Shown in pieces: positions 203-30,628 of a stretch of DNA of 32,012 nucleotides. The notes beneath the pieces were generated by a model. That model did not search any database, was not told where the DNA came from, and saw only the letters and a program-made list of their open reading frames with translations. Position numbers and translations under genes: made by a program. The first letter of the stretch is position 1. Each line of letters starts with the position of its first letter. The DNA comes from a virus: IMG/VR virus record IMGVR_UViG_3300037502_002003, positions 1 through 32,012 of that record; one strand, written 5' to 3'.

Positions 203-985
203 ATTGGTTTGCTTGATACTTACACCGACGCAGCAGCAGCCTATAGTGTGCGTAAACTTCGCGCTGCTTACACTGGCAGTGCTATTCGTGTGCGCAGGTC
301 ATCCGATAACACCGAACAAGACATCGGATTTGATGGCAATGGTAATTTAGATGAAAGCGCATTAACAACGTTTGTGGGGGCAAATAATGGATTTGTCACT
401 ACTTGGTATGACCAAAGTGGAAATAGCAGAAATGCAACACAATCAACAGCGGTAAATCAGCCACAAATAATAAATAGCGGTACTGTTATTAAACAAAATA
501 ATAAAGTAGCTATGAATTTTGATGGTAGCAATGATAGTTTGCGAACAATTAATTTCTCACTTGTACAGCCCGAAAATTTATTTTTTGTTCATAAATGGCT
601 TACAATAAACAAAGGCGCATTTGTTTTTCAATATATGATTGATGGTTTTACTGGCGATACAATGGTATATAGAGAAGTTGGTGGGAGAATAAACGTTTTA
701 GCAGATACAACACTTTACAACAATACTCAAGGTGCTAATTTAAATCAAAATTTAAGTTCTGTTTTATTCAGTGGCTCTAATTCAAATTATTATTTAAACA
801 ATGCTTTAATTGCAAGTGGCAACGCTGGTTCATTGAATGGTGGTGGTATATCAATAGGACTGCATCCGGGTCTTGGTAGATATGGCAATTTTTCGTTTCA
901 GGAACTCATTGTTTATCCATCTAATAAAAATAGTAATAGAAGTGGAATAAACAGTAATATAAATACTTATTATTCAATATACTAA
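149..985 (+). CDS. LamG/arabinofuranosidase-B-like fold protein, probable tail fibre or receptor-binding protein
   Basis: The 278-residue protein has a conserved N-terminal half with an 'AAYSVRKLRAAYTGSAIRVR' segment (residues 29-48) followed by 'TTWYDQSGN' (about 84-92). This pattern is familiar from concanavalin-A/LamG domains related to the arabinofuranosidase-B catalytic domain, common on phage and Bacteroidetes surface proteins. The C-terminal half is Asn/Ser/Gly-rich and beta-rich, with no visible catalytic motif. It follows the connector genes on the circle and precedes the lysis genes, a usual fibre position. Base composition drops to strongly AT-rich from about 370 to 980 while the flanks do not, suggesting an exchanged receptor-binding segment. 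Binding function is inferred. The start overlaps the previous stop (ATGA). Confidence 0.7.
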   Translation: MIRRGIGVQPYTVGATPFIGLLDTYTDAAAAYSVRKLRAAYTGSAIRVRRSSDNTEQDIGFDGNGNLDESALTTFVGANNGFVTTWYDQSGNSRNATQSTAVNQPQIINSGTVIKQNNKVAMNFDGSNDSLRTINFSLVQPENLFFVHKWLTINKGAFVFQYMIDGFTGDTMVYREVGGRINVLADTTLYNNTQGANLNQNLSSVLFSGSNSNYYLNNALIASGNAGSLNGGGISIGLHPGLGRYGNFSFQELIVYPSNKNSNRSGINSNINTYYSIY

Positions 986-1215
986 TGTTAGGATATAAAT
1001 ATATAACAGAACAAGAAGCAATCAATGCCCGTGAAGCGTGTGATGCTTTTTATGGAATACCCGTTGCGCCTGATGACATTACACAAAATTGGGTTGAATA
1101 TTCTTTTGCAGAATTTAACACACCGCAATTTTGGTATATTGTTTTTGATGAAAGTTTATTGCCTGTTTTAGGTCAGCCAGTTGAATTTGAAGTAATAACA
1201 CCGCCATATCAATGA
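985..1215 (+). CDS. Small conserved-looking phage protein, unknown function
   Basis: A 76-residue acidic, aromatic-rich protein with no recognised motif. The start shares a base with the previous stop (TAATG at 983-987) and its own stop overlaps the next start (ATGA at 1212-1215), so it is translationally coupled to the fibre gene and the first lysis candidate. A role as fibre-assembly helper is possible from position alone. Like the fibre's second half it is AT-rich, so both may have been acquired together. Confidence 0.65.
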   Translation: MLGYKYITEQEAINAREACDAFYGIPVAPDDITQNWVEYSFAEFNTPQFWYIVFDESLLPVLGQPVEFEVITPPYQ

Positions 1216-1370
1216 AAAACTTGAATGATACAATAGTGGGTAGTTGGTTATTGTGGGTTGCAGGAGCAGCAGCAAAATTGCTGCCCATTATTCAATTCCT
1301 ATCTTTTACGGCAGCGTTGATTTTATCCTGCATAGGCATTTATAAGTTTTTCAGCAATGGCAAAAAGTAA
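1212..1370 (+). CDS. 52-residue membrane protein, holin candidate
   Basis: ATG at 1212 overlaps the preceding stop (ATGA) and the frame runs to TAA at 1368-1370. The product begins MKNLNDTIVGSWLLWV and has one long or two short hydrophobic stretches (about residues 12-46), then a basic tail ending NGKK. It stands at the head of a cluster with a second small membrane protein, an Rz-like protein and a putative endolysin, so a holin or antiholin role is the simplest inference. It overlaps the next small gene by 14 bases in another frame. Confidence 0.6.
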   Translation: MKNLNDTIVGSWLLWVAGAAAKLLPIIQFLSFTAALILSCIGIYKFFSNGKK

Positions 1371-1476
1371 GGAAATATCCAAATGGAAACCGAAAAGCAA
1401 ACGGAAGTTGGGCAGACACACGAAGTCAGCAAACAAACACAAGAGCAGCAAGCCGTACGTAGGACAAGGAAGATGA
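1357..1476 (+). CDS. 39-residue highly basic protein ending KPYVGQGR
   Basis: ATG at 1357 lies inside the end of the 52-residue gene, and the frame closes at TGA 1474-1476, overlapping the next ATG at 1473 (ATGA). Fourteen of 39 residues are Lys or Arg, spread evenly, and the protein ends KPYVGQGR. The precise coupling at both ends argues for translation. The competing frame across 1383-1472 would add 30 low-complexity Gln/Glu/Thr residues to the next gene and looks like a shadow. Function is unknown; nucleic-acid binding or a virion-packaged basic peptide are guesses. Confidence 0.55.
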   Translation: MAKSKEISKWKPKSKRKLGRHTKSANKHKSSKPYVGQGR

Positions 1477-1652
1477 AGTTGAAAAATTATTTCTCACCCA
1501 CCCCCAAGCGTTTCCGTGTTTTAGGAGACAGCATCGCGGCTGCATCTTTGTTTGTTGCCGGGCTAAACCTTGACCATCCCAAATTGATGCTGTTGTGCGG
1601 TGTGTTGGGTGCGATTGGCAAATTCGTTACAAACTTTTTCGCAGAGGAATGA
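1473..1652 (+). CDS. 59-residue two-helix membrane protein, holin candidate
   Basis: The chosen start is ATG 1473, coupled to the stop of the basic 39-residue gene, giving a protein that begins MKLKNYFSPTPKRFRVLGD. Residues about 17-31 and 35-53 are hydrophobic, joined by 'NLDHPK', and the end is acidic (FFAEE). The 'SPTPKRFR...GD' start and 'GKFVTNFF' end are typical, as I recall them, of small holin-like proteins of Bacteroidetes phages. A start at 1383 in the same frame is possible but adds an unlikely hydrophilic tail. The stop overlaps the next ATG at 1649. Confidence 0.65.
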   Translation: MKLKNYFSPTPKRFRVLGDSIAAASLFVAGLNLDHPKLMLLCGVLGAIGKFVTNFFAEE

Positions 1653-2167
1653 GGATTGCATATGGGATTATTGTTATTATTTGCTTTTGCCTGCTTATGC
1701 TTGGCGTTAGGTCTTGTGAGACACCAATCCAAACACGGCAAAATATAGATACCATGCAAGGCAAGGTGGACAAATACAAGGCAGAGATTGACAGCATAAA
1801 AGCCGAGTATTTAAATTTGCTCAATAGCCGTGCGGTTAAGATAAAAACCCTGCGTGAAATCAGGACAAAATATGTCCACGATACGCTGACCGTTGAAACA
1901 CTCATTGGTGACACTTCGGGCATCGCAAATCTGCTATCCGAAAACGCCCTTATGAAAGAGATTGTTTTTGAGGACAGTTTGATAATTGCAAATCAAGGTC
2001 AGGTGGTAATTTACCAAGATAGCGTTATTTCGCATTTAGAGACCATTACAGACGCTCAAAAAGATTTATTGAGTAATTGTGCCAACGAAGTAAAAAAACA
2101 GCGTAAAAAGGCTAATTTTTGGCGAAGCCTTGCCGTGGTATTTGGATTGGTCGCGGTTGCAAAGTAA
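1649..2167 (+). CDS. Rz/spanin-like membrane-anchored coiled-coil protein
   Basis: From ATG 1649 (ATGA overlap with the preceding stop) the product is 172 residues. It has an N-terminal transmembrane helix (about residues 4-20, rich in Ile/Val/Leu), a long heptad-like charged region (about 25-150), and a short C-terminal hydrophobic segment 'SLAVVFGLVAVAK'. One anchor plus a periplasmic coiled coil, beside holin and endolysin candidates, matches an i-spanin or Rz role. An upstream in-frame start at 1595 would put 18 Cys/Arg-containing residues before the helix and destroy the coupling, so it is rejected. Confidence 0.6.
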   Translation: MRIAYGIIVIICFCLLMLGVRSCETPIQTRQNIDTMQGKVDKYKAEIDSIKAEYLNLLNSRAVKIKTLREIRTKYVHDTLTVETLIGDTSGIANLLSENALMKEIVFEDSLIIANQGQVVIYQDSVISHLETITDAQKDLLSNCANEVKKQRKKANFWRSLAVVFGLVAVAK

Positions 2168-2176
2168 ATTCGTGGT

Positions 2177-2386
2177 ATGTTTACCCTTATAAAGCTGCAA
2201 GGAGTGCATGAATTTTACTACTGCCGCGATGCACAATGGCATCCATCTGCTGAACTTAATGCGGTGATTAAGCCGATTATTTACCGCACGGATTCGGATG
2301 CCCGGAAAGCGTGGGAGAGAATCGGAAAACCTGCCATTACTTTTGTGCAGGAAATAAAAACAAGAGATAAGACACTATTACAATGA
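2177..2386 (+). CDS. Small hypothetical protein in the lysis cluster
   Basis: A 69-residue protein beginning MFTLIKLQGVHEFYYC, with no recognised motif or membrane segment. It starts nine bases after the Rz-like gene and its TGA overlaps the endolysin ATG (2383-2386), so it is co-translated with the lysis genes. Function is unknown. Confidence 0.6.
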   Translation: MFTLIKLQGVHEFYYCRDAQWHPSAELNAVIKPIIYRTDSDARKAWERIGKPAITFVQEIKTRDKTLLQ

Positions 2387-3003
2387 AAAATCTGCAAATA
2401 TACCTGAACAGCAAGGGCGCAATGCTTAAAACCGATGGCATAATCGGGCCACAAACATTGACCGTATTGGACAGCTACATAAAAAGCGAAATAAGAAAGC
2501 GTGAATATCGGATGCCCGTTGATGGGTTGGTTTGGTTAAGGACTGACCAGATATTTAGCAACAAATACGATGACTTTGTTGTGTGTTATAAAGCTGGCAG
2601 GATTGTGTATGTTGCGCCTGCATCTACAACCGCAGGAGATTTTTATATTTATAACCCATTCACCGTTGGCGGCATCACTGGCACAGCGGTTGCAGTTCCA
2701 CAACAAGTCACAAATAGTCACAGATTTGTGACATCATCAAACTGGAAAACCTTATGGCTTGGCGCACCTTATTTCATGCAGATTTTGCCGATTACAATTC
2801 ACCGCGATAGCAACAAAGACAGAAACGTGGACAAGATGAATAAGCAAGTTGGTCTTTTTGGTATCAATTTTCACAAGGGTGGTTTAGGCAACTGGGTAAA
2901 TAAGCACAGTGCAGGATGCCAAACGGTACCAGATAAGGATTGGTTTGAAATTATAAAGCGGTTTAACCCCGGTCAGGTGATTGACTTCACCCTCATTGAC
3001 TAA
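2383..3003 (+). CDS. Putative endolysin: peptidoglycan-binding N-terminus plus H/SAGCQ catalytic-like domain
   Basis: The 206-residue protein opens with a short peptidoglycan-binding-like repeat (about residues 2-30, with 'DGIIGPQTLTVLD'). The C-terminal part carries 'ITIHRDSNKD' (138-147), 'FGINFHKGG' (159-167, H164) and 'KHSAGCQTVP' (174-183, H175, S176, C179). A conserved His followed by Ser-x-Gly-Cys recalls the Cys site of L,D-transpeptidase/YkuD-like folds, and such modules occur in phage wall-active enzymes. Cleavage of cell-wall peptide or glycan is inferred from this and from the holin/Rz neighbours. It converges on the minus-strand gene at 2993, overlapping by 11 bases with no visible terminator between. 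Confidence 0.6.
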   Translation: MKNLQIYLNSKGAMLKTDGIIGPQTLTVLDSYIKSEIRKREYRMPVDGLVWLRTDQIFSNKYDDFVVCYKAGRIVYVAPASTTAGDFYIYNPFTVGGITGTAVAVPQQVTNSHRFVTSSNWKTLWLGAPYFMQILPITIHRDSNKDRNVDKMNKQVGLFGINFHKGGLGNWVNKHSAGCQTVPDKDWFEIIKRFNPGQVIDFTLID

Positions 3004-3256
3004 CGGCAGCAATCCTATCCACAAGGGTTGCCATATCTATTTTGCACAAATACACCAATTCACCACACACCACGCAGGTAAGTGGCTTTGATTTAGTGTT
3101 GCGTTCATCCGGCATGATTGCGTCTATCTTATAAAAGCAAACCAAAAACGTGGGGTCATGATAAGGGTCATCATTAACTGAAATTCCCATATCTTCCAAC
3201 ATTTCGGCCTGCTCATTCGCGGCAATGACTTCAAGACACAGCGGAATTTTAAACAT
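2993..3256 (-). CDS. Small hypothetical protein downstream of metallophosphoesterase
   Basis: An 87-residue protein beginning MFKIPLCLEVIAANEQAEML. It has a Cys pair 'CVVC' (about 61-64) that might bind metal but lacks a clear second pair. It overlaps the end of the metallophosphoesterase gene by eight bases and is the last gene of that unit, converging on the endolysin gene. No function can be assigned. Confidence 0.6.
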   Translation of the reverse strand: MFKIPLCLEVIAANEQAEMLEDMGISVNDDPYHDPTFLVCFYKIDAIMPDERNTKSKPLTCVVCGELVYLCKIDMATLVDRIAAVSQ

Positions 3257-4115
3257 AGAACTGCTGGCAAAAGGTGAACTCTGGCGTTACTTCACTGTCC
3301 CTTAAATTGGCGGTTAAGGTCAGCCACATAGAGCCGAGCGGTTTGGGTGGCCTGCCCCTTTCAATATGAAACCCACCGAAACCATCTTCATACTCCTCTT
3401 TATAGGTTGATGTTCTAATTTGGTGTACGTTGCGAGCCTTTATTTTCTTTTGGTGGCTATCGTATACTTCCACCGGGTTGATATGATGGTACAACTCGTG
3501 AACGTGGCCCTGCCAAATGCAATCGTAACCCTCCATTGATGCCATAAATCGTTGGTCTTGGATGACACCCTTTGTAACAGCACCGCCACCGCCAAAGCCG
3601 TGGTAATATCGCAGTGTCCATTTGCGTCTGTGACCGTGTTCGGTGAGATTAAATTTGAAATCTACCACGCCACCATAACCGCCAGCGTAAACATTTGCCC
3701 CGTGTGTGGTGTTGAACAGGTCAACAAAACGCTGTATCGGGTCAGTTTCCAATGCCTTTAGTATTGCTGTTTCGTGGTTGCCATAACCTACCAGCAGAAT
3801 GTTGTCTTTGTACGGAGCAAACCAATCCACCGCATCCTGAATAACCGCATCGATGTAATTCGCTTTGTTGTGTTCAGGTCGGATGTCTTTCTTTGAGCGA
3901 CGTGGGTCGTATTTCCCCTGCATCATGCAAAAAGTGTCACCGTTTAAAATGATTTTGCAACCCCTTTTTACCGCTTCATCCATGTGATTTTTGAGTAATT
4001 CCCTGTCACACTTGGGGTTATCCCAGTGCAAATCCGACATTAAAAGCAGGTTGATTTGTTTGTCGCAGTACACAGCGTGGATGTTCCGGCTGATGCGTTT
4101 GGTTTCTTTGACCAT
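3249..4115 (-). CDS. Calcineurin-like metallophosphoesterase
   Basis: The 288-residue protein has the full metallophosphoesterase signature: 'SDLHWD' (D28, H30), 'LNGDTF' (D60), 'YGNHE' (N113, H114), 'YYHGFGGGG' (H172) and 'WQGHVHE' (H204, H206). These residues bind two metal ions in the family, whose members hydrolyse phosphomonoesters or phosphodiesters. The substrate cannot be read from sequence; nucleotides, nucleic-acid ends or cyclic signals are possible, including an anti-defence role. The gene is separated from the upstream early operon by a terminator at 4285-4312 and has a TACTTTTAT element seven bases before its ATG. It is therefore probably transcribed on its own together with the 87-residue gene downstream. 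Confidence 0.85.
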   Translation of the reverse strand: MVKETKRISRNIHAVYCDKQINLLLMSDLHWDNPKCDRELLKNHMDEAVKRGCKIILNGDTFCMMQGKYDPRRSKKDIRPEHNKANYIDAVIQDAVDWFAPYKDNILLVGYGNHETAILKALETDPIQRFVDLFNTTHGANVYAGGYGGVVDFKFNLTEHGHRRKWTLRYYHGFGGGGAVTKGVIQDQRFMASMEGYDCIWQGHVHELYHHINPVEVYDSHQKKIKARNVHQIRTSTYKEEYEDGFGGFHIERGRPPKPLGSMWLTLTANLRDSEVTPEFTFCQQFYV

Positions 4116-5919: not shown

Positions 5920-6166
5920 TTTTAGCTATTTTTAATAAAATTAGATATCCGATTAAATCGTTCAAAGTGTCCTCATCCGTTGCTTCCATTCCTGCACCTC
6001 TGGCAATCCGGCTTAACTTATCGTCGATACGGACAAGCAACTGCTCCTGATTATCTGCCTTGCTGAAAACTCGCACCGGGTTCAGTGCAGAGTTTCCATA
6101 TTTGGCATTTTTGTCAATGAGTAGCTTTTTGATGCTGTCGCAGGTTTGCTCAATCTTCTCTTTCAT
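5879..6166 (-). CDS. Nmad1/DUF1599-like nucleotide-modification-associated protein
   Basis: The 95-residue protein carries 'KYGNSALNPVRVFSK' (about 22-36), 'LLVRIDDKLSRIARG' (43-57) and 'DEDTLNDLIGYLILLKIA' (63-80). This arrangement is typical of the small helical domain called nucleotide modification associated domain 1, common in phages. Its biochemical role is not settled; an acidic helical bundle resembling MazG-type nucleotide-binding proteins is suggested by the 'EDTLNDLIGY' helix. It sits among replication genes. Confidence 0.65.
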   Translation of the reverse strand: MKEKIEQTCDSIKKLLIDKNAKYGNSALNPVRVFSKADNQEQLLVRIDDKLSRIARGAGMEATDEDTLNDLIGYLILLKIAKNDIRREKAAFSGL

Positions 6167-12824: not shown

Positions 12825-13024
12825 CACCCGAACAAAAAGAAATTTGCCTACAACTGAAAGAAACCATTGAGCGGATCAACCGCACGGGGACATATCACCT
12901 TGCCGCTGATTATTACGCTAAACTTAACGAGGTACACCGCCAGTTATATGGTCAGCCATTGCCCGGTTGCCGTAGCTGTATGTTTGATGCACTGAAAAGA
13001 TTATACCGAGAAGCCAATGGTTAA
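12821..13024 (+). CDS. Small hypothetical protein
   Basis: A 67-residue charged helical protein beginning MTPEQKEICLQLKETIERIN, with a late 'CRSC' pair (about 50-53). It is coupled by ATGA to the membrane protein gene and overlaps the glycosyltransferase start by eight bases. Function unknown. Confidence 0.6.
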   Translation: MTPEQKEICLQLKETIERINRTGTYHLAADYYAKLNEVHRQLYGQPLPGCRSCMFDALKRLYREANG

Positions 13025-13775
13025 GATTATACATTCAGGAAACGCAGGGGATTTGATTTACTCCTTGCCTGCCATGCGCAAAGCATCCGAACTGAAAGGC
13101 GAAAAGGTGCATTTGTACCTGCATATTAACGTACCTGCAAAATACGGCAGTTTATCTCACCCTATGGGTAACGTGCAGATGAACAGAAAAATGGCTGAAA
13201 TGTTGATACCTTTGCTGATGTCAACCGATTTTATAGGCGAGTGTGAAATCACAGAGGAGGCCCAGCAGGTAGATTATAACTTTGACCTATTCCGCAAATT
13301 CCATAACTACACCGGGCATATATCACAATGGTACTTCCACATTTACCCAGAACTTACCTGTGACCTTTCACAGCCGATTAATTTTGATTTAGCACCCAGC
13401 CCGGAAGCGTTTGATATAGTGCTTAACCGAACCTCACGCTACCACAACCCCACGTTTGACTATACAGCCCTGCGCCAATATCAGGACCGCATCACTTTTG
13501 TAGGCTTGCCCGAAGAGTTCCGAGTTATCAGCGCAAAGCTGCCAAACATAAAACACTACCCAGTTGATGATTTTTATCAATTAGCGCAGGTCATATCCGG
13601 ATGCAACCTATTTATCGGTAACCAATCGATGGCCTTTGCTATAGCCGAGCAAATGAAACACCCAAGAGTTGTGGAGATTTGCCCGACTGCTCACAATGTA
13701 ATCCCGACCGGGCAAAACGGATATGGGGCTTGGACAATCGTTAACCTATTACAAATACTTAAAATACATGGCTAA
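13017..13775 (+). CDS. GT9/heptosyltransferase-like glycosyltransferase
   Basis: The 252-residue protein begins MVKIIHSGNAGDLIYSLPAM, the N-terminal loop of GT-B glycosyltransferases of the heptosyltransferase type. Near the C-terminus it has 'LFIGNQSMAFAIAEQMKHPR', the family 9 nucleotide-sugar-binding region. It is shorter than bacterial heptosyltransferases (usually above 300 residues). It is followed by a SAM methyltransferase and, farther on, a GT4-like enzyme, making a sugar-modification cluster in front of the terminase. Target (DNA base, virion protein or host surface sugar) is not visible. Confidence 0.7.
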   Translation: MVKIIHSGNAGDLIYSLPAMRKASELKGEKVHLYLHINVPAKYGSLSHPMGNVQMNRKMAEMLIPLLMSTDFIGECEITEEAQQVDYNFDLFRKFHNYTGHISQWYFHIYPELTCDLSQPINFDLAPSPEAFDIVLNRTSRYHNPTFDYTALRQYQDRITFVGLPEEFRVISAKLPNIKHYPVDDFYQLAQVISGCNLFIGNQSMAFAIAEQMKHPRVVEICPTAHNVIPTGQNGYGAWTIVNLLQILKIHG

Positions 13776-14382
13776 TAAGAAAAAATCACCCATCACGGGT
13801 TTTGCTTGCGAAAAGGCATTTATCAAAGGCGGTGTGCAATACTACCGCGATGGACTTGGAAATATCTTCTGCAAACCATTAGACCAATCCGAAATGGTTG
13901 GTGGCGGTAATGAAATCCCGCGCAACAACGAAGCAGACAACACCACCCGGTTGCAAAGGGTTAAAGACATTACAGGCAAACCTAACCCCACAATTTTAGA
14001 TTTTGGGTGTGGCAATGGTATGCTGGTATGCTTTGGAAAAGCAAGAGGATATAACGTGCTTGGTTATGACCTATATCGACCCGAAACCCACGATGCCCTC
14101 AATAAAAAATACGATTGCCTACTCTTAATAGAGGTGATTGAGCATTTGTCCGAGCCGTTTGATGAATTGAAACTGATGAAAAACCTGCTCAACCCCGGTG
14201 GAAAGGTTATGATTGAGACATCATTCTCCGATTGGCTGACCGAACACGATGCATACATTGAGCCAAAGGTAGGGCATTGCACTATTTTTAGCCATGCCGG
14301 GTTGGATTTTCTGTTTGAGAAGTTCGGGTTTAAGATAGGCAAACACATAAACGACAACGTGAGAATTTATGCTCTGGGTTAA
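13768..14382 (+). CDS. SAM-dependent class I methyltransferase
   Basis: From ATG 13768 the product is 204 residues. Residues about 1-60 hold a domain with 'SPITGFACEKAFIKGGVQYY'. The methyltransferase fold follows: motif I 'ILDFGCGNG' (76-84), 'YNVLGYDLY' (95-103), and 'LLIEVIEHLSEP' (119-130), the pattern of the Methyltransf_23/UbiE-like group. These act on small molecules or sugars more often than on DNA. The start lies inside the end of the GT9-like gene. An upstream in-frame start at 13723 is within that gene and less likely. Confidence 0.75.
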   Translation: MANKKKSPITGFACEKAFIKGGVQYYRDGLGNIFCKPLDQSEMVGGGNEIPRNNEADNTTRLQRVKDITGKPNPTILDFGCGNGMLVCFGKARGYNVLGYDLYRPETHDALNKKYDCLLLIEVIEHLSEPFDELKLMKNLLNPGGKVMIETSFSDWLTEHDAYIEPKVGHCTIFSHAGLDFLFEKFGFKIGKHINDNVRIYALG

Positions 14383-14794
14383 ACTAACAGAGATTAGGCC
14401 GAATGCAAACAACCCACGCCAAATAAGCGCGGATGATTTTGCGTTGCTGAAACGCTCTTTAATGCAGTTTCCCGAAATGCTCACAGCAAGGCCACTTGTA
14501 TGCTATACATCCGATATGGGTGGGTATGTGATATTGGGTGGCAACCAAAGATACAGAGCATTGTGCGACATAGGGGCAGAGGAAGTGCCTATCGTATTGG
14601 CTGATGACTGGACACCACAACAACGTGATGAGTTCTTGATTAAAGATAATACGCATTACGGCAAATGGGATACCGAGATGTTGGCAAATGAATGGGATGC
14701 GGTTGAACTTGCGGAATGGGGTTTGCACCTGCCTGAACCACCCGAAGAAAAGGAAGAAAAAGACACTTGCCCGACTTGTGGCAAATCAATATAA
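14369..14794 (+). CDS. ParB/Srx-fold protein with C-terminal zinc motif
   Basis: The 141-residue protein has the ParB-like N-terminal core: 'IRPNANNPRQI' (9-19), 'LLKRSLMQFP' (26-35), 'VILGGNQRYRAL' (54-65) and 'FLIKDNTHYGKWD' (89-101). It ends 'DTCPTCGKSI', half of a zinc ribbon. Stand-alone ParB/Srx domains are frequent next to phage terminases and DNA-modification genes; some have nuclease or CTP/ATPase activity. It overlaps the methyltransferase by 14 bases. Plasmid-type partitioning is unlikely because no ParA is present. Confidence 0.75.
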   Translation: MLWVKLTEIRPNANNPRQISADDFALLKRSLMQFPEMLTARPLVCYTSDMGGYVILGGNQRYRALCDIGAEEVPIVLADDWTPQQRDEFLIKDNTHYGKWDTEMLANEWDAVELAEWGLHLPEPPEEKEEKDTCPTCGKSI

Positions 14795-14815
14795 AAACAT
14801 CGGAGATACATCGGT

Positions 14816-15190
14816 ATGGAATTAGAGAAACAACCACATGGCGGAAGCCTGACAAGACCAGCGAAAGGGGAAACAATGAACCCCAATGGCAGACCCAAAA
14901 AGTTTGTCACGTTGCTGAAAGAACACGGCTACAAAGTGAGCGAGGTAAACGACACCGTGCAGGCAATGTTGGCAATGACACTGGATGAACTCAAAGAAGT
15001 TTGGAATGACCCAAAGGCGACCATACTTGAAAAGACCATTGCCAACGCTATGCGGAAGTCATTGGAGAAAGGCAGTTTGTATTCCATTGAAACGCTACTG
15101 AGCAGGGTGTACGGCAAGCCAAAGGAAACGGCAGATGTAAATCAAAATGTAACCGGGGAGATAAAAATATCACTTGATTTAGGAGAATAA
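14816..15190 (+). CDS. Terminase small subunit candidate
   Basis: The 124-residue protein contains 'MNPNGRPKKFVTLLKEHGYK' (21-40), then helices with 'TILEKTIANAMRKSLEKGSL' and 'LLSRVYGKPKE'. The 'NPNGRPKK' segment and the helix 'SIETLLSRVYG' are common in small proteins directly before large terminases of Bacteroidetes phages. It would bind the packaging site and load the large subunit. Two genes separate it from TerL. A later start at 14876 (MNPNGRPKK) is possible. A terminator-like hairpin follows the stop. Confidence 0.6.
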   Translation: MELEKQPHGGSLTRPAKGETMNPNGRPKKFVTLLKEHGYKVSEVNDTVQAMLAMTLDELKEVWNDPKATILEKTIANAMRKSLEKGSLYSIETLLSRVYGKPKETADVNQNVTGEIKISLDLGE

Positions 15191-15227
15191 AAAAACCCGG
15201 CAGCTTTGCGGGGTACTGCCGGGCTGG
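15189..15227. terminator. Hairpin terminator after small terminase
   Basis: CCCGGCAG (15196-15203) and CTGCCGGG (15216-15223) form a perfect eight-base-pair stem with a 12-base loop. On the minus strand it is followed by seven Ts (15195-15189); on the plus strand by CTGG and four Ts (15228-15231). It can work in both directions and looks stronger leftwards. Confidence 0.65.
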
Positions 15228-15249
15228 TTTTGCAACCGATATTCAAGTG

Positions 15250-15257
15250 CAAATATA
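15250..15257 (-). promoter_or_regulatory. Possible leftward -7 box facing the hairpin
   Basis: Minus strand TATATTTG, a perfect -7 box, points at the hairpin 15189-15223. No leftward gene follows, so it would make an RNA of about 55-60 bases ending at the T7 tract. A TTTG box at the right distance is missing, so it may be chance. Confidence 0.3.
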
Positions 15258-15265
15258 AACAAAAA

Positions 15266-15406
15266 ATGAAAAGAAAATACCACGTTCAAAGAAATCGTGA
15301 CAAAAAAATGAGACAATTGCACTTCCATTTGGTGCTGATTAAAAGCGGTTTCATAAATGGGATTTACAAAAACCTAAAACAAGCCATCGAATGGCACGAA
15401 AAATGA
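15266..15406 (+). CDS. 46-residue basic hypothetical protein
   Basis: From ATG 15266 the protein begins MKRKYHVQRNRDKKMRQLHF and ends KQAIEWHEK; it is strongly basic at the N-terminus. The frame is open back to 15206, but that part covers the terminator hairpin. Its TGA overlaps the glycosyltransferase ATG at 15403, so it may lead translation of that gene. Function unknown. Confidence 0.5.
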   Translation: MKRKYHVQRNRDKKMRQLHFHLVLIKSGFINGIYKNLKQAIEWHEK

Positions 15407-16461
15407 AAGTATTAGCATTATGGCAGGGCATGGGTGGGGTGGAATACCACCGCCTTTATGTCCCACTGAAACGCCTGCAAATCGACCATGCTGACCAAAT
15501 CGAGGTGGAAGTATCGCAGGAGTTTGATAAATCAGGACTACCTAATTTAAAGCAATATGACCTTATACTATTCAACCGATGGCTGGGCCGTGACCACTAC
15601 GAGATACTGCACTATTTGGCAAAGCACGGCATCCCGTACATTGTGGACATCGACGACTTCTGGGAGTTGCCGAAGTACCACCCAACTTATAAGTATTTCC
15701 GTGAAAACAAATTGAAGCAGGCCATTGTGGATGCTATCCGATACGCTGACGGGGTGACAACCACCACACCGCAACTGGCTGCTGAATTGCGTAAGTTGAA
15801 CAGGAACGTGGAGATACTGCCCAACGCATTAGACACTACGGATGAACACTGGTTATCCGCACCACAGAAACGTGATGTGTTCACATTCGGCTGGGTTGGT
15901 GGGCTTACCCACAGCAACGACATTATGATAATCAGCGATGCCATTGCCCGGATATGCGATGAATACGGCGACAAAGTGCGCTTTGTGATCTGCGGATGGA
16001 TGCCGAATAATTACGTATGGGATAGCATCTTGTATAAGTTCAATGGCGGTTCTGGTGTGCTTAGACCGCAGGTTGTGGTATCAGCAGCACAAGCACCAAA
16101 CGAATACGGCAATTTTTACCGCTTGTTTGATGTGGCACTTGCACCGCTTGAAGATACCAAGTGGAACAACTGCAAATCAGAACTGAAAATAATCGAAGCG
16201 TCAACCTATAAATTGCCCGTAATAGCATCAAATGTCAACCCATACATTAACCATGCTGAAAACTACGGGGTCCATTTCACGGACAACACACCTGATGCGT
16301 GGTATAAATCAATGAAGCATTTTTTGGATAGCCAAGAAAGCGCAAAGATTTTGGGTGACAATAACTACTACTACTGCAAAGAACACCACGATTTAGATAA
16401 AATCAACCTGAAAAGGCTGGAATTTTACCGATGCACATCCAATATAAGCGACCATTTGTAA
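15403..16461 (+). CDS. GT4-like glycosyltransferase (group 1)
   Basis: From ATG 15403 (ATGA overlap; 15391 is an alternative) the product is 352 residues. It begins MKVLALWQGMGGVEYHRLYV, has 'IVDIDDFWELPKYHP' in the middle of the N-terminal Rossmann domain and 'FTFGWVGGLTHSNDI' at the start of the second. The family region follows as 'DVALAPLEDTKWNNCKSELK' leading to 'IIEASTYKLPVIAS'. That last segment is the nucleotide-sugar site of family 4 enzymes, with the usual Glu-x7-Glu replaced by a Ser-Glu-Leu-Lys-x-x-Glu form. Its 3' end overlaps the terminase by 31 bases. The acceptor is unknown; with the GT9-like enzyme it may glycosylate virion, DNA or host envelope. Confidence 0.8.
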   Translation: MKVLALWQGMGGVEYHRLYVPLKRLQIDHADQIEVEVSQEFDKSGLPNLKQYDLILFNRWLGRDHYEILHYLAKHGIPYIVDIDDFWELPKYHPTYKYFRENKLKQAIVDAIRYADGVTTTTPQLAAELRKLNRNVEILPNALDTTDEHWLSAPQKRDVFTFGWVGGLTHSNDIMIISDAIARICDEYGDKVRFVICGWMPNNYVWDSILYKFNGGSGVLRPQVVVSAAQAPNEYGNFYRLFDVALAPLEDTKWNNCKSELKIIEASTYKLPVIASNVNPYINHAENYGVHFTDNTPDAWYKSMKHFLDSQESAKILGDNNYYYCKEHHDLDKINLKRLEFYRCTSNISDHL

Positions 16462-28334: not shown

Positions 28335-28712
28335 ATGTTATACATCACAAAAGGCGGCACACCTGAATTGATAATCACGGGCAAAGAGAAAGTGACTATT
28401 TCTCCCGTGTATTATCTATTGGTGTTTGAAAGTGAAATGTCGCAGGAACGCAAGGCATTTATCGTGGCAGATAGCAGCACATCACCAAACAGATATCAGT
28501 TATTTTCATTTGTAGAGGGCAGCAGCACTGCCAAAACCCTTGCCGTAGGTACGCATTATTGGTCATTATACGCACAGACAAGCCCGACCAATACAAACTA
28601 TCTGCTGGCAAATGAGGAAATCGACAGAGGGCTTGCATACGTTTCTACCAGTCACACACCATTTAACGATCACGAGGTCAATACAACGATTAAACAGCAC
28701 AACGTAGGATGA
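28335..28712 (+). CDS. Small structural-region protein, unknown
   Basis: From ATG 28335 the product is 125 residues, beginning MLYITKGGTPELIITGKEKV; ATG 28326 would add Met-Gly-Arg. The protein is beta-rich with 'VYYLLVFESEMSQERKAFIV' and 'AVGTHYWSLYAQTSP'. It resembles small virion or neck proteins in general character, but I do not recognise a family. The frame is open back to 28266, yet that crosses the terminator. It is coupled by ATGA to the portal gene. Confidence 0.55.
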   Translation: MLYITKGGTPELIITGKEKVTISPVYYLLVFESEMSQERKAFIVADSSTSPNRYQLFSFVEGSSTAKTLAVGTHYWSLYAQTSPTNTNYLLANEEIDRGLAYVSTSHTPFNDHEVNTTIKQHNVG

Positions 28713-30628
28713 GTTTTGAACTATTACGCATAAATTTTGCCGAAAGCAAGTTGCCTGTATTCAAAGAGAATAAGAATAAGGGCATAATGTATTACGGGGA
28801 AGCCAACGATTTCCCACAGCACTTATTGGAATTTTACAACCGCTCACCAAAACACGGTGCTATTGTACGCCAAAAGGCGCGATTTGTGGCAGGTGAAGAG
28901 ACCGTTGTAGAGGGCAACCCCAACGCGGTTAAAATAATAGACTACGTGAACCCTTATGAGGGTGTGCAAGAATTTAAAAACAAGTTGGCTCTGGATTATG
29001 AGTTGTTCAATGGCTTTGCATACGAGGTTCATTACAACAAATTGGGGCAGTTGGCTGCACTTTACCACGTTGATTTCAGCAAAGTTCGGACATTAGACCA
29101 CGAACTCTATATGTACGCAGAGGATTGGAAAAAGGCGAAGCATGAGGACATGAAGCATTACCGCCCATTCAATCCCAAAAAGGCGCAGCCGATGGAAGTG
29201 CAGTTGTTTTACTTCCGTGAATATGCACCGGGTCTGGGTGTTTATCCGCTGCCACCTTACCAGCATTGTTTGCAATATATTGAGATTGATGTAGAAATCG
29301 CAAACTTTCACAACAATAATATACGCAACGGGTTCAGCAACGGCACACTTGTTCAGTTATTTAAAGGTCAACCCTCTCAGGAAATAGCCTACGAATTTGA
29401 GCGTAAGTTTAAGGCCAAAACAACTGGAACGGACAACGCTGGTGGTGTGCTTATTCAGTTCAACGAAATGAACGAAAAGGAAGCCACCATCAACCATCTG
29501 CAACCGAGTGAAATGGACAAGCAGTTTTTGCAACTCAATGAAACGGTGCAAGATGAGATATTTGTAGGTCACAACTTCCCCAAAATTCTGCTCGGCTATG
29601 CCACAGAGGGTGCGCTCGGTCAGCGCAATGAAATGATACAAGCCTATGAGTTGTTGCATAAAAGTTACATCAACCGCAGGCAGAGTAAAATTGAAACGTG
29701 CCTTGAAAATACGCTTGAAGTAGTTTATCCCGGCATTCAAATCAGCACTAAAGACAGCGAATTTTTAGCAATTGATTACGTGGCTTTGTATGGTGCAGGA
29801 ATTGCCACCGTTGATGAAGCACGCGAGCAGTTGGGATTGGGCGAAACTGAACAGAAAGTGATTGACGCTGCACAGAAAACGATTGACAACATCAACAGCT
29901 TGTCGCCATTGGTAGCAAATAATGTACTTGCCAACATGACCGTCAATGAAAAACGTGCATTGGCAGGATTGCCACCTATTGAGGGCGGTGATGCACTGGC
30001 ATCTACACCAAGCACTGCACCTGAACCGACCACGTTTACAGCGGTAAAAATGAAATGTGAGTGCGAAATGTGGAAAGACAGCGACATCGAGGTGTTTTCC
30101 AAGTTCGGTGTAAGTGCTGACGAGTTTGAAGATGTGCCGATGCTATTTGCACTGGACACAAAAGAGAAAAAAGTACTTGCAGTAGTAACGGCTGACGAAA
30201 AAGCCACCGTGAAAAACATTGCTGATGCGGTAAAATTGGACGAGCCAGAAGTAATTGAGATACTAAAAAAACTGCAAAGCGACGGCAAGTTGAATTGGAC
30301 AAACAACGCAATCAAAATCACAGATATCGGTAGGGCAGACATCCAAGACGAGGGATTGCCGAAAATAGAGGTGCGTTACAAGTACGATTTAAGCCCTGAT
30401 GCACCACCTTTGATGCCCGGTGGAAAGAGCCGTGAGTTCTGCATAAAAATGATGGAAACAAACAAGCTCTACACAAGGCAGGAAATAGACCAAATTTCAG
30501 CAATTGTAAAATACAACGCATGGCTTCGCAGAGGTGGATGGTACACGGTTCCAAATAGTGAACCACCATTGCACATTCCGCATTGCAGACATGAGTGGGT
30601 TCAAAGAGTAGTAAGGAGAAGATCATAA
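28709..30628 (+). CDS. Portal protein with winged-helix-like and MuF-like C-terminal parts
   Basis: The 639-residue protein begins MSFELLRINFAESKLPVFKE. Residues 1 to about 420 look like an HK97/SPP1-type portal: 'YYGEANDFPQHLLEFYNRSP', 'ARFVAGEE', 'HNFPKILLGYATEGALGQRN'. Residues about 490-560 form a winged-helix-like segment ('EKATVKNIADAVKLDEPEVI', 'LKKLQSDGKLNW'). The last 80 contain 'GKSREFCIKMMETNKLYTRQ' and 'LRRGGWYTVPNSEPPLHIPH' with CRHEW, matching the C-terminus of MuF/gp7-like minor head proteins. So two head proteins seem fused. The portal dodecamer forms the DNA entry vertex and docks the terminase. Confidence 0.8.
   Translation: MSFELLRINFAESKLPVFKENKNKGIMYYGEANDFPQHLLEFYNRSPKHGAIVRQKARFVAGEETVVEGNPNAVKIIDYVNPYEGVQEFKNKLALDYELFNGFAYEVHYNKLGQLAALYHVDFSKVRTLDHELYMYAEDWKKAKHEDMKHYRPFNPKKAQPMEVQLFYFREYAPGLGVYPLPPYQHCLQYIEIDVEIANFHNNNIRNGFSNGTLVQLFKGQPSQEIAYEFERKFKAKTTGTDNAGGVLIQFNEMNEKEATINHLQPSEMDKQFLQLNETVQDEIFVGHNFPKILLGYATEGALGQRNEMIQAYELLHKSYINRRQSKIETCLENTLEVVYPGIQISTKDSEFLAIDYVALYGAGIATVDEAREQLGLGETEQKVIDAAQKTIDNINSLSPLVANNVLANMTVNEKRALAGLPPIEGGDALASTPSTAPEPTTFTAVKMKCECEMWKDSDIEVFSKFGVSADEFEDVPMLFALDTKEKKVLAVVTADEKATVKNIADAVKLDEPEVIEILKKLQSDGKLNWTNNAIKITDIGRADIQDEGLPKIEVRYKYDLSPDAPPLMPGGKSREFCIKMMETNKLYTRQEIDQISAIVKYNAWLRRGGWYTVPNSEPPLHIPHCRHEWVQRVVRRRS

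Follow-up and report, generated by a model that had tools for sequence, protein, structure and literature searches.

The window (the whole stretch of viral DNA analyzed here, 32,012 nucleotides long) contains, within a putative lysis cassette, a 39-codon frame that is a real gene under strong purifying selection. As judged from sequence comparisons, its product groups with numerous small proteins of aquatic phages, a family marked by a fixed C-terminus. It is possible, although far from assured, that many aquatic phages have in common a largely overlooked late protein, whose fixed tail would engage either one host partner shared across bacterial phyla, such as the ribosome, or one common to unrelated phages, such as the packaged DNA or the packaging motor. 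If so, the peptide would represent a common step of aquatic phage infection, so far undescribed. Pelagiphages and cyanophages are among the commonest marine viruses, and the family offers a peptide that is short, simple to make, and open to activity tests.

The cassette and its 39-codon gene

A preliminary description of this DNA had placed three chained genes of 52, 39, and 59 codons in a lysis region, and their coordinates all hold (Table 1). The first gene (1212-1370) opens by ATGA over the stop of 985-1215, the second (1357-1476) overlaps the first by 14 bases, and the third (1473-1652) again opens by ATGA, whereas a longest-frame call would give 1383-1652 (89 aa). The 39-residue protein, described as more than one third Lys/Arg and ending in KPYVGQGR, indeed has 14/39 such residues (36%) and this ending.

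Table 1. Features of the cassette and its surroundings in the window
Feature	Coordinates	Strand	Remarks
Acidic 76-aa protein	985..1215	+	Directly 5' of cassette, ATGA-coupled to it; no family match
52-aa membrane protein, holin/antiholin candidate	1212..1370	+	Hydrophobic stretches; conserved 5' of peptide in relatives
Basic 39-aa microprotein	1357..1476	+	Net +13; C-terminus KPYVGQGR; pN/pS 0.19; related to Y-x-G-Q-G-[R/K] family
Spurious N-terminal extension of 59-aa frame	1383..1472	+	pN/pS 1.82; stops in L017/L086
59-aa membrane protein, holin candidate	1473..1652	+	True start 1473; pN/pS 0.10
172-aa protein, N-terminal membrane stretch and likely coiled coil	1649..2167	+	Spanin-like by layout only
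69-aa protein between spanin-like gene and endolysin	2177..2386	+	
Predicted endolysin, 206 aa	2383..3003	+	Peptidoglycan-binding-like N-terminus and L,D-transpeptidase-like domain

Selection was assessed with 47 sequences (29 distinct, encoding 20 distinct proteins), comprising the window and fetched loci of its clade. All 39 codons are kept in these sequences, 5' of the same 59-62-aa protein, and variation in the frame falls mainly on third codon positions, which are variable in 34 of the 39 codons, compared with 10 first and 11 second positions. Among the 29 distinct sequences, pN/pS of the 39-codon frame is 0.19 over 1381-1470 and 0.22 over the whole frame, while the same bases (1381-1470) read in the 1383 frame give 1.82, and those in the third frame 1.40; the value for the 59-aa frame is 0.10. 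It could be argued that the 39-codon frame is accidental and that the real product is the 89-aa protein read from 1383, in a frame that is open with a start codon in 28/29 distinct sequences. However, the codon at 1383 (ATG in 23/29 and GTG in 6/29 distinct sequences) splits as expected if the start is incidental to AARTGG, the coding sequence for a conserved Lys-Trp. In addition, one relative (L017/L086) is interrupted by stops in the 1383 frame but has an intact 39-codon frame, and in another, L010, the 59-aa protein opens with GTG at 1473. An 89-aa gene, already contradicted by the selection test, is therefore exceedingly improbable. Since the 39-codon gene is real and the 1383 frame shows no purifying selection, the next membrane protein starts at 1473, and the earlier warning that the longest frame would conceal a real gene and mis-start its neighbor was justified. 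A relative that had lost the 39-codon frame and kept the 1383 start was not seen, whereas the reverse is found in L017/L086.

Values of pN/pS were also obtained for six further groups with enough sequences, G3 being left out for an extra residue in its tail. In five of the six, the family frame gives 0.07-0.32, as against 0.98-4.1 in the other frames. The value of 0.95 in the sixth (the HAKRPNK group, 5 sequences) does not by itself support coding, and overlap with the next gene may be the cause.

The flanking frames 1212-1370 and 1473-1652 have hydrophobic 19-residue windows (1.4-2.2), as in membrane-spanning segments. Neither has a holin family match in Pfam, NCBIfam, or PHROGs; the same searches, run on eight cassette proteins, gave no family match for the 985-1215 product and nothing useful for the basic peptide. 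Short proteins resembling the 985-1215 product also lie 5' of the cassette in other groups, and the 1649-2167 product matches an Rz-like spanin family at E 0.12 at best. The enzyme at 2383-3003 has residues H164, S176, G178, and C179 invariant across 25 sequences. Its family matches are weak, but its structural model, of middling quality (mean pLDDT 71), has as its best PDB match an L,D-transpeptidase (4lpq, E 7.3e-4, TM 0.32), and nearly all of the first 50 structure matches are L,D-transpeptidases. These predictions suggest that a cell-wall role is likely. The predicted combination of an L,D-transpeptidase-like fold with invariant H...SxGC residues and a peptidoglycan-binding-like N-terminus would be an unusual type among phage endolysins. 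The lysis setting assumed at the outset is thus supported by the predicted cell-wall enzyme and by the membrane stretches in both flanking frames, although the proteins of these frames are holin candidates that match no holin family.

Relatives of the 2383-3003 enzyme were fetched from 46 loci. Of these, 21 have a basic frame of 39 codons that ends as in the window, and a 59-62-aa protein always follows. Five of the other 25 begin too near the enzyme to judge (L008, L024, L028, L029, L042); in the remaining 20, the enzyme is no more than 60% identical, and there is no family match for the peptide. The membrane-basic-membrane triplet is absent in the 17 listed loci of this remaining set, and the peptide was found elsewhere in 0/12 searched records with a diverged endolysin, which may be fragments.

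Extent of the family and its place in databases

Profile A2 matched 288/314 sources at E ≤0.01, with one match each. These loci are not independent because the same contig was sometimes reached via two routes and phage stretches were re-fetched; better figures are 202 distinct peptides and 105 representatives. The proteins encoded at the 288 loci are mostly 38-54 residues long, and nearly all end in Y-x-G-Q-G-[R/K]. The 202 distinct members (34-58 aa as trimmed) have a net charge of +11 to +18 and a median of 33% K/R, and exactly one residue follows GQG in 172/202. The window peptide, with 39 aa, net +13, and a PYVGQGR end, has all of these features. The motif was partly a search pattern for L047-L166 and L186-L305, but it is also present in loci reached by the endolysin or by tblastn. 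Viral contigs were searched with two degenerate DNA patterns (KHKxxKPYxGQG and NKx4KKYxGQG, at least 120 matches each), so N-K, K, Y, and G-Q-G are invariant in A6 partly by construction.

Viral contigs contain members, as do phages that infect Pelagibacter, Synechococcus/Prochlorococcus, Methylophilales, and Roseobacter. By tblastn, related peptides are found in Pelagibacter phages, cyanophages, HTVC008M, HTVC025P, Melnitz, and CRP-9, and a cyanophage-type query (phrog_516 type) matched 454 GenBank phage records at E ≤10. The preliminary description had proposed a search for the C-terminal motif in other Bacteroidetes phages; the motif is present in pelagiphages, cyanophages, and phages of methylotrophs and roseobacters. 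A profile built solely from window-type sequences recovers members in Pelagibacter phages (per-genome E 4.5e-8 to 3.3e-4), CRP-9 (2.4e-4), and HTVC026P (0.003); it misses 10/19 records. Seven of the 19 GenBank members score 17.8-30.9 bits, whereas none of 9,500 composition shuffles exceeds 15.6. Cyanophage members, however, score 5.6-9.3 bits with the window-type profile, which is within the shuffle range, and consequently the tie between the window and the cyanophages rests on intermediates. Both phrog_17967 and phrog_516 match members of KKTS-type groups. Prokaryotic genome contigs gave 0 matches to one strict peptide pattern and no endolysin relative. Two plasmid matches at E 9, both inside an unrelated gene, were dismissed, as was Pfam DUF3934, whose weak matches (4/24 members, best E 0.046) are at chance level. 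A match of a Corynebacterium control genome to phrog_17967 at E ≤1 was likewise taken as chance.

PHROGs holds two related clusters without an assigned function. The first, phrog_17967 (41 positions), shares with the family its length, basic body, and Y-x-G-Q-G-[R/K] C-terminus, and matches 17/24 family members at E ≤1 (best 4.2e-10). The window protein itself has no match to phrog_17967 or phrog_516 at E ≤1, although its close relatives match phrog_17967 at E 0.01-0.03; for want of a direct match, it is termed here a related branch rather than a phrog_17967 member. Relative to that cluster, the window group is a diverged branch, linked via Pelagibacter-phage members. The second cluster, phrog_516 (48 positions, cyanophage-type), has the layout and ending of the family and matches 7/24 members, but it is longer than the window branch, carries an insert (QGxGxHTKYAxSS), and is linked via intermediates only. 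Neither Pfam nor NCBIfam has a family corresponding to the peptide. Literature searches on small or basic phage proteins, cyanophage virion proteomes, lysis peptides, and Bacteroidetes-phage lysis cassettes found no description of it in the literature available, and neither the motif strings nor the PHROG names led to a paper.

The family frame is unannotated in 9/19 GenBank phage stretches examined (HTVC021P, HTVC121P, HTVC304P, Eistla, S35-C6, Baldr, P-HM1, Syn1, and S-H9-2; loci L168, at 5977-6105, L169, L170, L172, and L174-L178). In the other ten (S-CAM8, S-TIM5, HTVC008M, HTVC025P, CRP-9, Melnitz, HTVC111P, HTVC115P, HTVC026P, and S30-C28), its annotation is limited to a number or the label hypothetical. 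In eight of the nine, an overlapping out-of-frame CDS is annotated in place of the family gene; consequently, neighboring CDSs in GenBank may have wrong starts, an example being those 5' of DNA maturase B in Pelagibacter phages. When the longest frame is called, small coupled genes are missed and the genes beside them are given false starts, and a conserved gene that is omitted from several published genomes, or swapped for an out-of-frame neighbor, is a gap in the basic parts list.

Gene neighborhood and possible function

In window-like groups, small membrane proteins and a cell-wall enzyme flank the peptide or are found on one side of it. Among the 105 representatives, a GH24, L,D-transpeptidase-like, or M15 enzyme is no more than three genes from the peptide in 22 of the 23 loci that hold one, and the same three models matched 0/724 distant genes; these three endolysin groups were, however, chosen from a list sorted by nearness, i.e., after it had been seen which were close. 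The GH24 and M15 labels of two of the groups are our presumption from the appearance of the sequences, the former with a Pfam match for one member in its favor. When 130 near and 130 far genes were scanned against PHROGs without such selection, endolysin labels appeared on both sides, and the difference points in the same direction but more weakly (7 near for the top endolysin family; no more than 2 far per family, among the first 25 families listed). Directly adjoining the peptide, there is a slight excess of small genes that encode a membrane stretch (35/142 at distance 1 vs 39/247 at distance 9-20). Terminase genes are near in 8 of the 105 representatives and far in 0, and gp25-like baseplate genes are near in 7 and far in 0, both categories having been picked after the list was seen. 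In Pelagivirus phages, the peptide gene is immediately 5' of the terminase genes, and in HTVC025P and S30-C28, it lies between the scaffold and capsid genes. Its neighbors are often late genes, among them those for endolysins, holin-like proteins, terminase, and baseplate. What the settings share is a late position and not just lysis, and the original tie of the peptide to a lysis cassette was too narrow, given that elsewhere relatives adjoin terminase, scaffold/capsid, or baseplate genes.

An AlphaFold2 model of the peptide (80 sequences) contains neither helix nor strand (mean pLDDT 73, pTM 0.18). The window peptide has 18% hydrophobic residues and no 11-residue window of positive mean hydrophobicity, and trypsin would leave a single fragment longer than 4 residues. 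Codons at the conserved C-terminal end vary; thus, the constraint acts on the protein. The charge suggests nucleic acid as a partner, and a fixed C-terminus with varying codons suggests a specific contact. We tentatively propose that the peptide is a disordered late nucleic-acid-binding accessory protein, whose likeliest target would be the phage genome, either while it is packaged or within the virion. It would be made late, by coupled translation in a lysis/packaging operon, and would on its own stay unfolded and bind nucleic acid, its Lys/Arg-rich body neutralizing phosphate and its conserved Y-x-G-Q-G-[R/K] end making the specific contact. Action on the phage's own DNA, as an internal or packaging-accessory protein, would account for the place of the gene among the late genes of unrelated phage types. 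Real coding, a basic, soluble peptide with no hydrophobic stretch or predicted structure, a fixed C-terminus, and late-gene neighbors (terminase, gp25-like baseplate, and three endolysin types) are all consistent with this proposal, and the late position in many groups would favor the phage genome over an early takeover role. However, some members lie in non-structural regions (close to DnaD genes in HTVC111P and HTVC026P, 3' of ribonucleotide reductase in CRP-9, and adjoining phoH in Melnitz), and the S-TIM5 record has a virion-protein note on some other genes but none on the family gene. Furthermore, such a fixed C-terminus would be needless for a protein that simply neutralizes DNA. DNA as the target is the least certain step, with RNA or the ribosome as the main alternative and a lysis regulator as the third.

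In the main alternative, the peptide would act late in infection by binding structured RNA or the host ribosome and would redirect or block translation. Phage λ N and similar proteins are disordered, basic RNA-binding proteins; like the peptide, they are basic and unfolded when alone, although their size and gene position differ. There is also an analogy to the basic unfolded tails of ribosomal proteins, and a fixed C-terminus would fit a pocket conserved across bacterial phyla. The window group and phages that infect Pelagibacter, Roseobacter, Methylophilales, and Cyanobacteria have one C-terminal motif in common, with specific residues conserved beyond charge and no secondary structure predicted. 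Yet PDB searches with two profiles and two single sequences returned no chain at E ≤10, ribosomal proteins included, and many groups have late-gene rather than early-takeover neighbors. On balance, a ribosome or RNA target is rather unlikely.

It is less likely again that the peptide is a lysis protein, whether a soluble one that regulates the two membrane proteins on either side or a cationic one that opens the outer membrane in the manner of disruptin. Its position in the window, flanked by the two membrane proteins and near the cell-wall enzyme, and its nearness to endolysin-type genes in 22/23 loci would fit such a role, but the post hoc choice of enzyme groups, the endolysin labels found both near and far in the unselected scan, and the many relatives that do not adjoin lysis genes argue against it. 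Disruptin, a lysis peptide of phage phiKT, is described (PMC12819732) as an amphipathic helix with an antimicrobial effect. Like the window peptide, it is a small phage peptide of antimicrobial-peptide character in a lysis setting. Compared with this amphipathic cationic helix, however, the low hydrophobicity of the window peptide, its lack of a hydrophobic stretch, and the absence of a helix from its model speak against a disruptin-like agent, and a membrane-lysing peptide is unlikely.

Finally, the peptide could serve in host takeover or anti-defense, with a host protein as its target, and the late region would be no more than the place where its gene is carried. Its position differs between phages, as it does for accessory genes, and its absence from 12/12 records with a diverged endolysin (possibly fragments) means that it may be dispensable; nevertheless, its strong conservation and long retention across phage types would be unusual for an arms-race peptide, and this explanation is the least probable of the functional ones.

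Other observations

In L074 and L131, a second conserved basic protein (NPSGGLNxAGRxYYxR..., 90 aa) is encoded ~280-550 bases 3' of the peptide motif, and in the same group, further small lysine-rich genes lie directly 3' of the peptide. Elsewhere in the window, a 288-aa protein is encoded on the minus strand at 3249-4115, and similar proteins lie 3' of the portal region in L081, L085, L102, and L120; from its motif (SDLHWDN...GNHE), we take it to resemble a calcineurin-like phosphoesterase. Within 13017-16461, a glycosyltransferase-1 type gene (15391-16461, PF13692), possibly involved in surface-sugar modification, is found just 5' of the terminase large subunit; the closest matches of the window terminase are distant. 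The portal protein (28709-30628) has a C-terminal winged-helix match (HTH_24, E 7.4e-5), which is odd for a portal.
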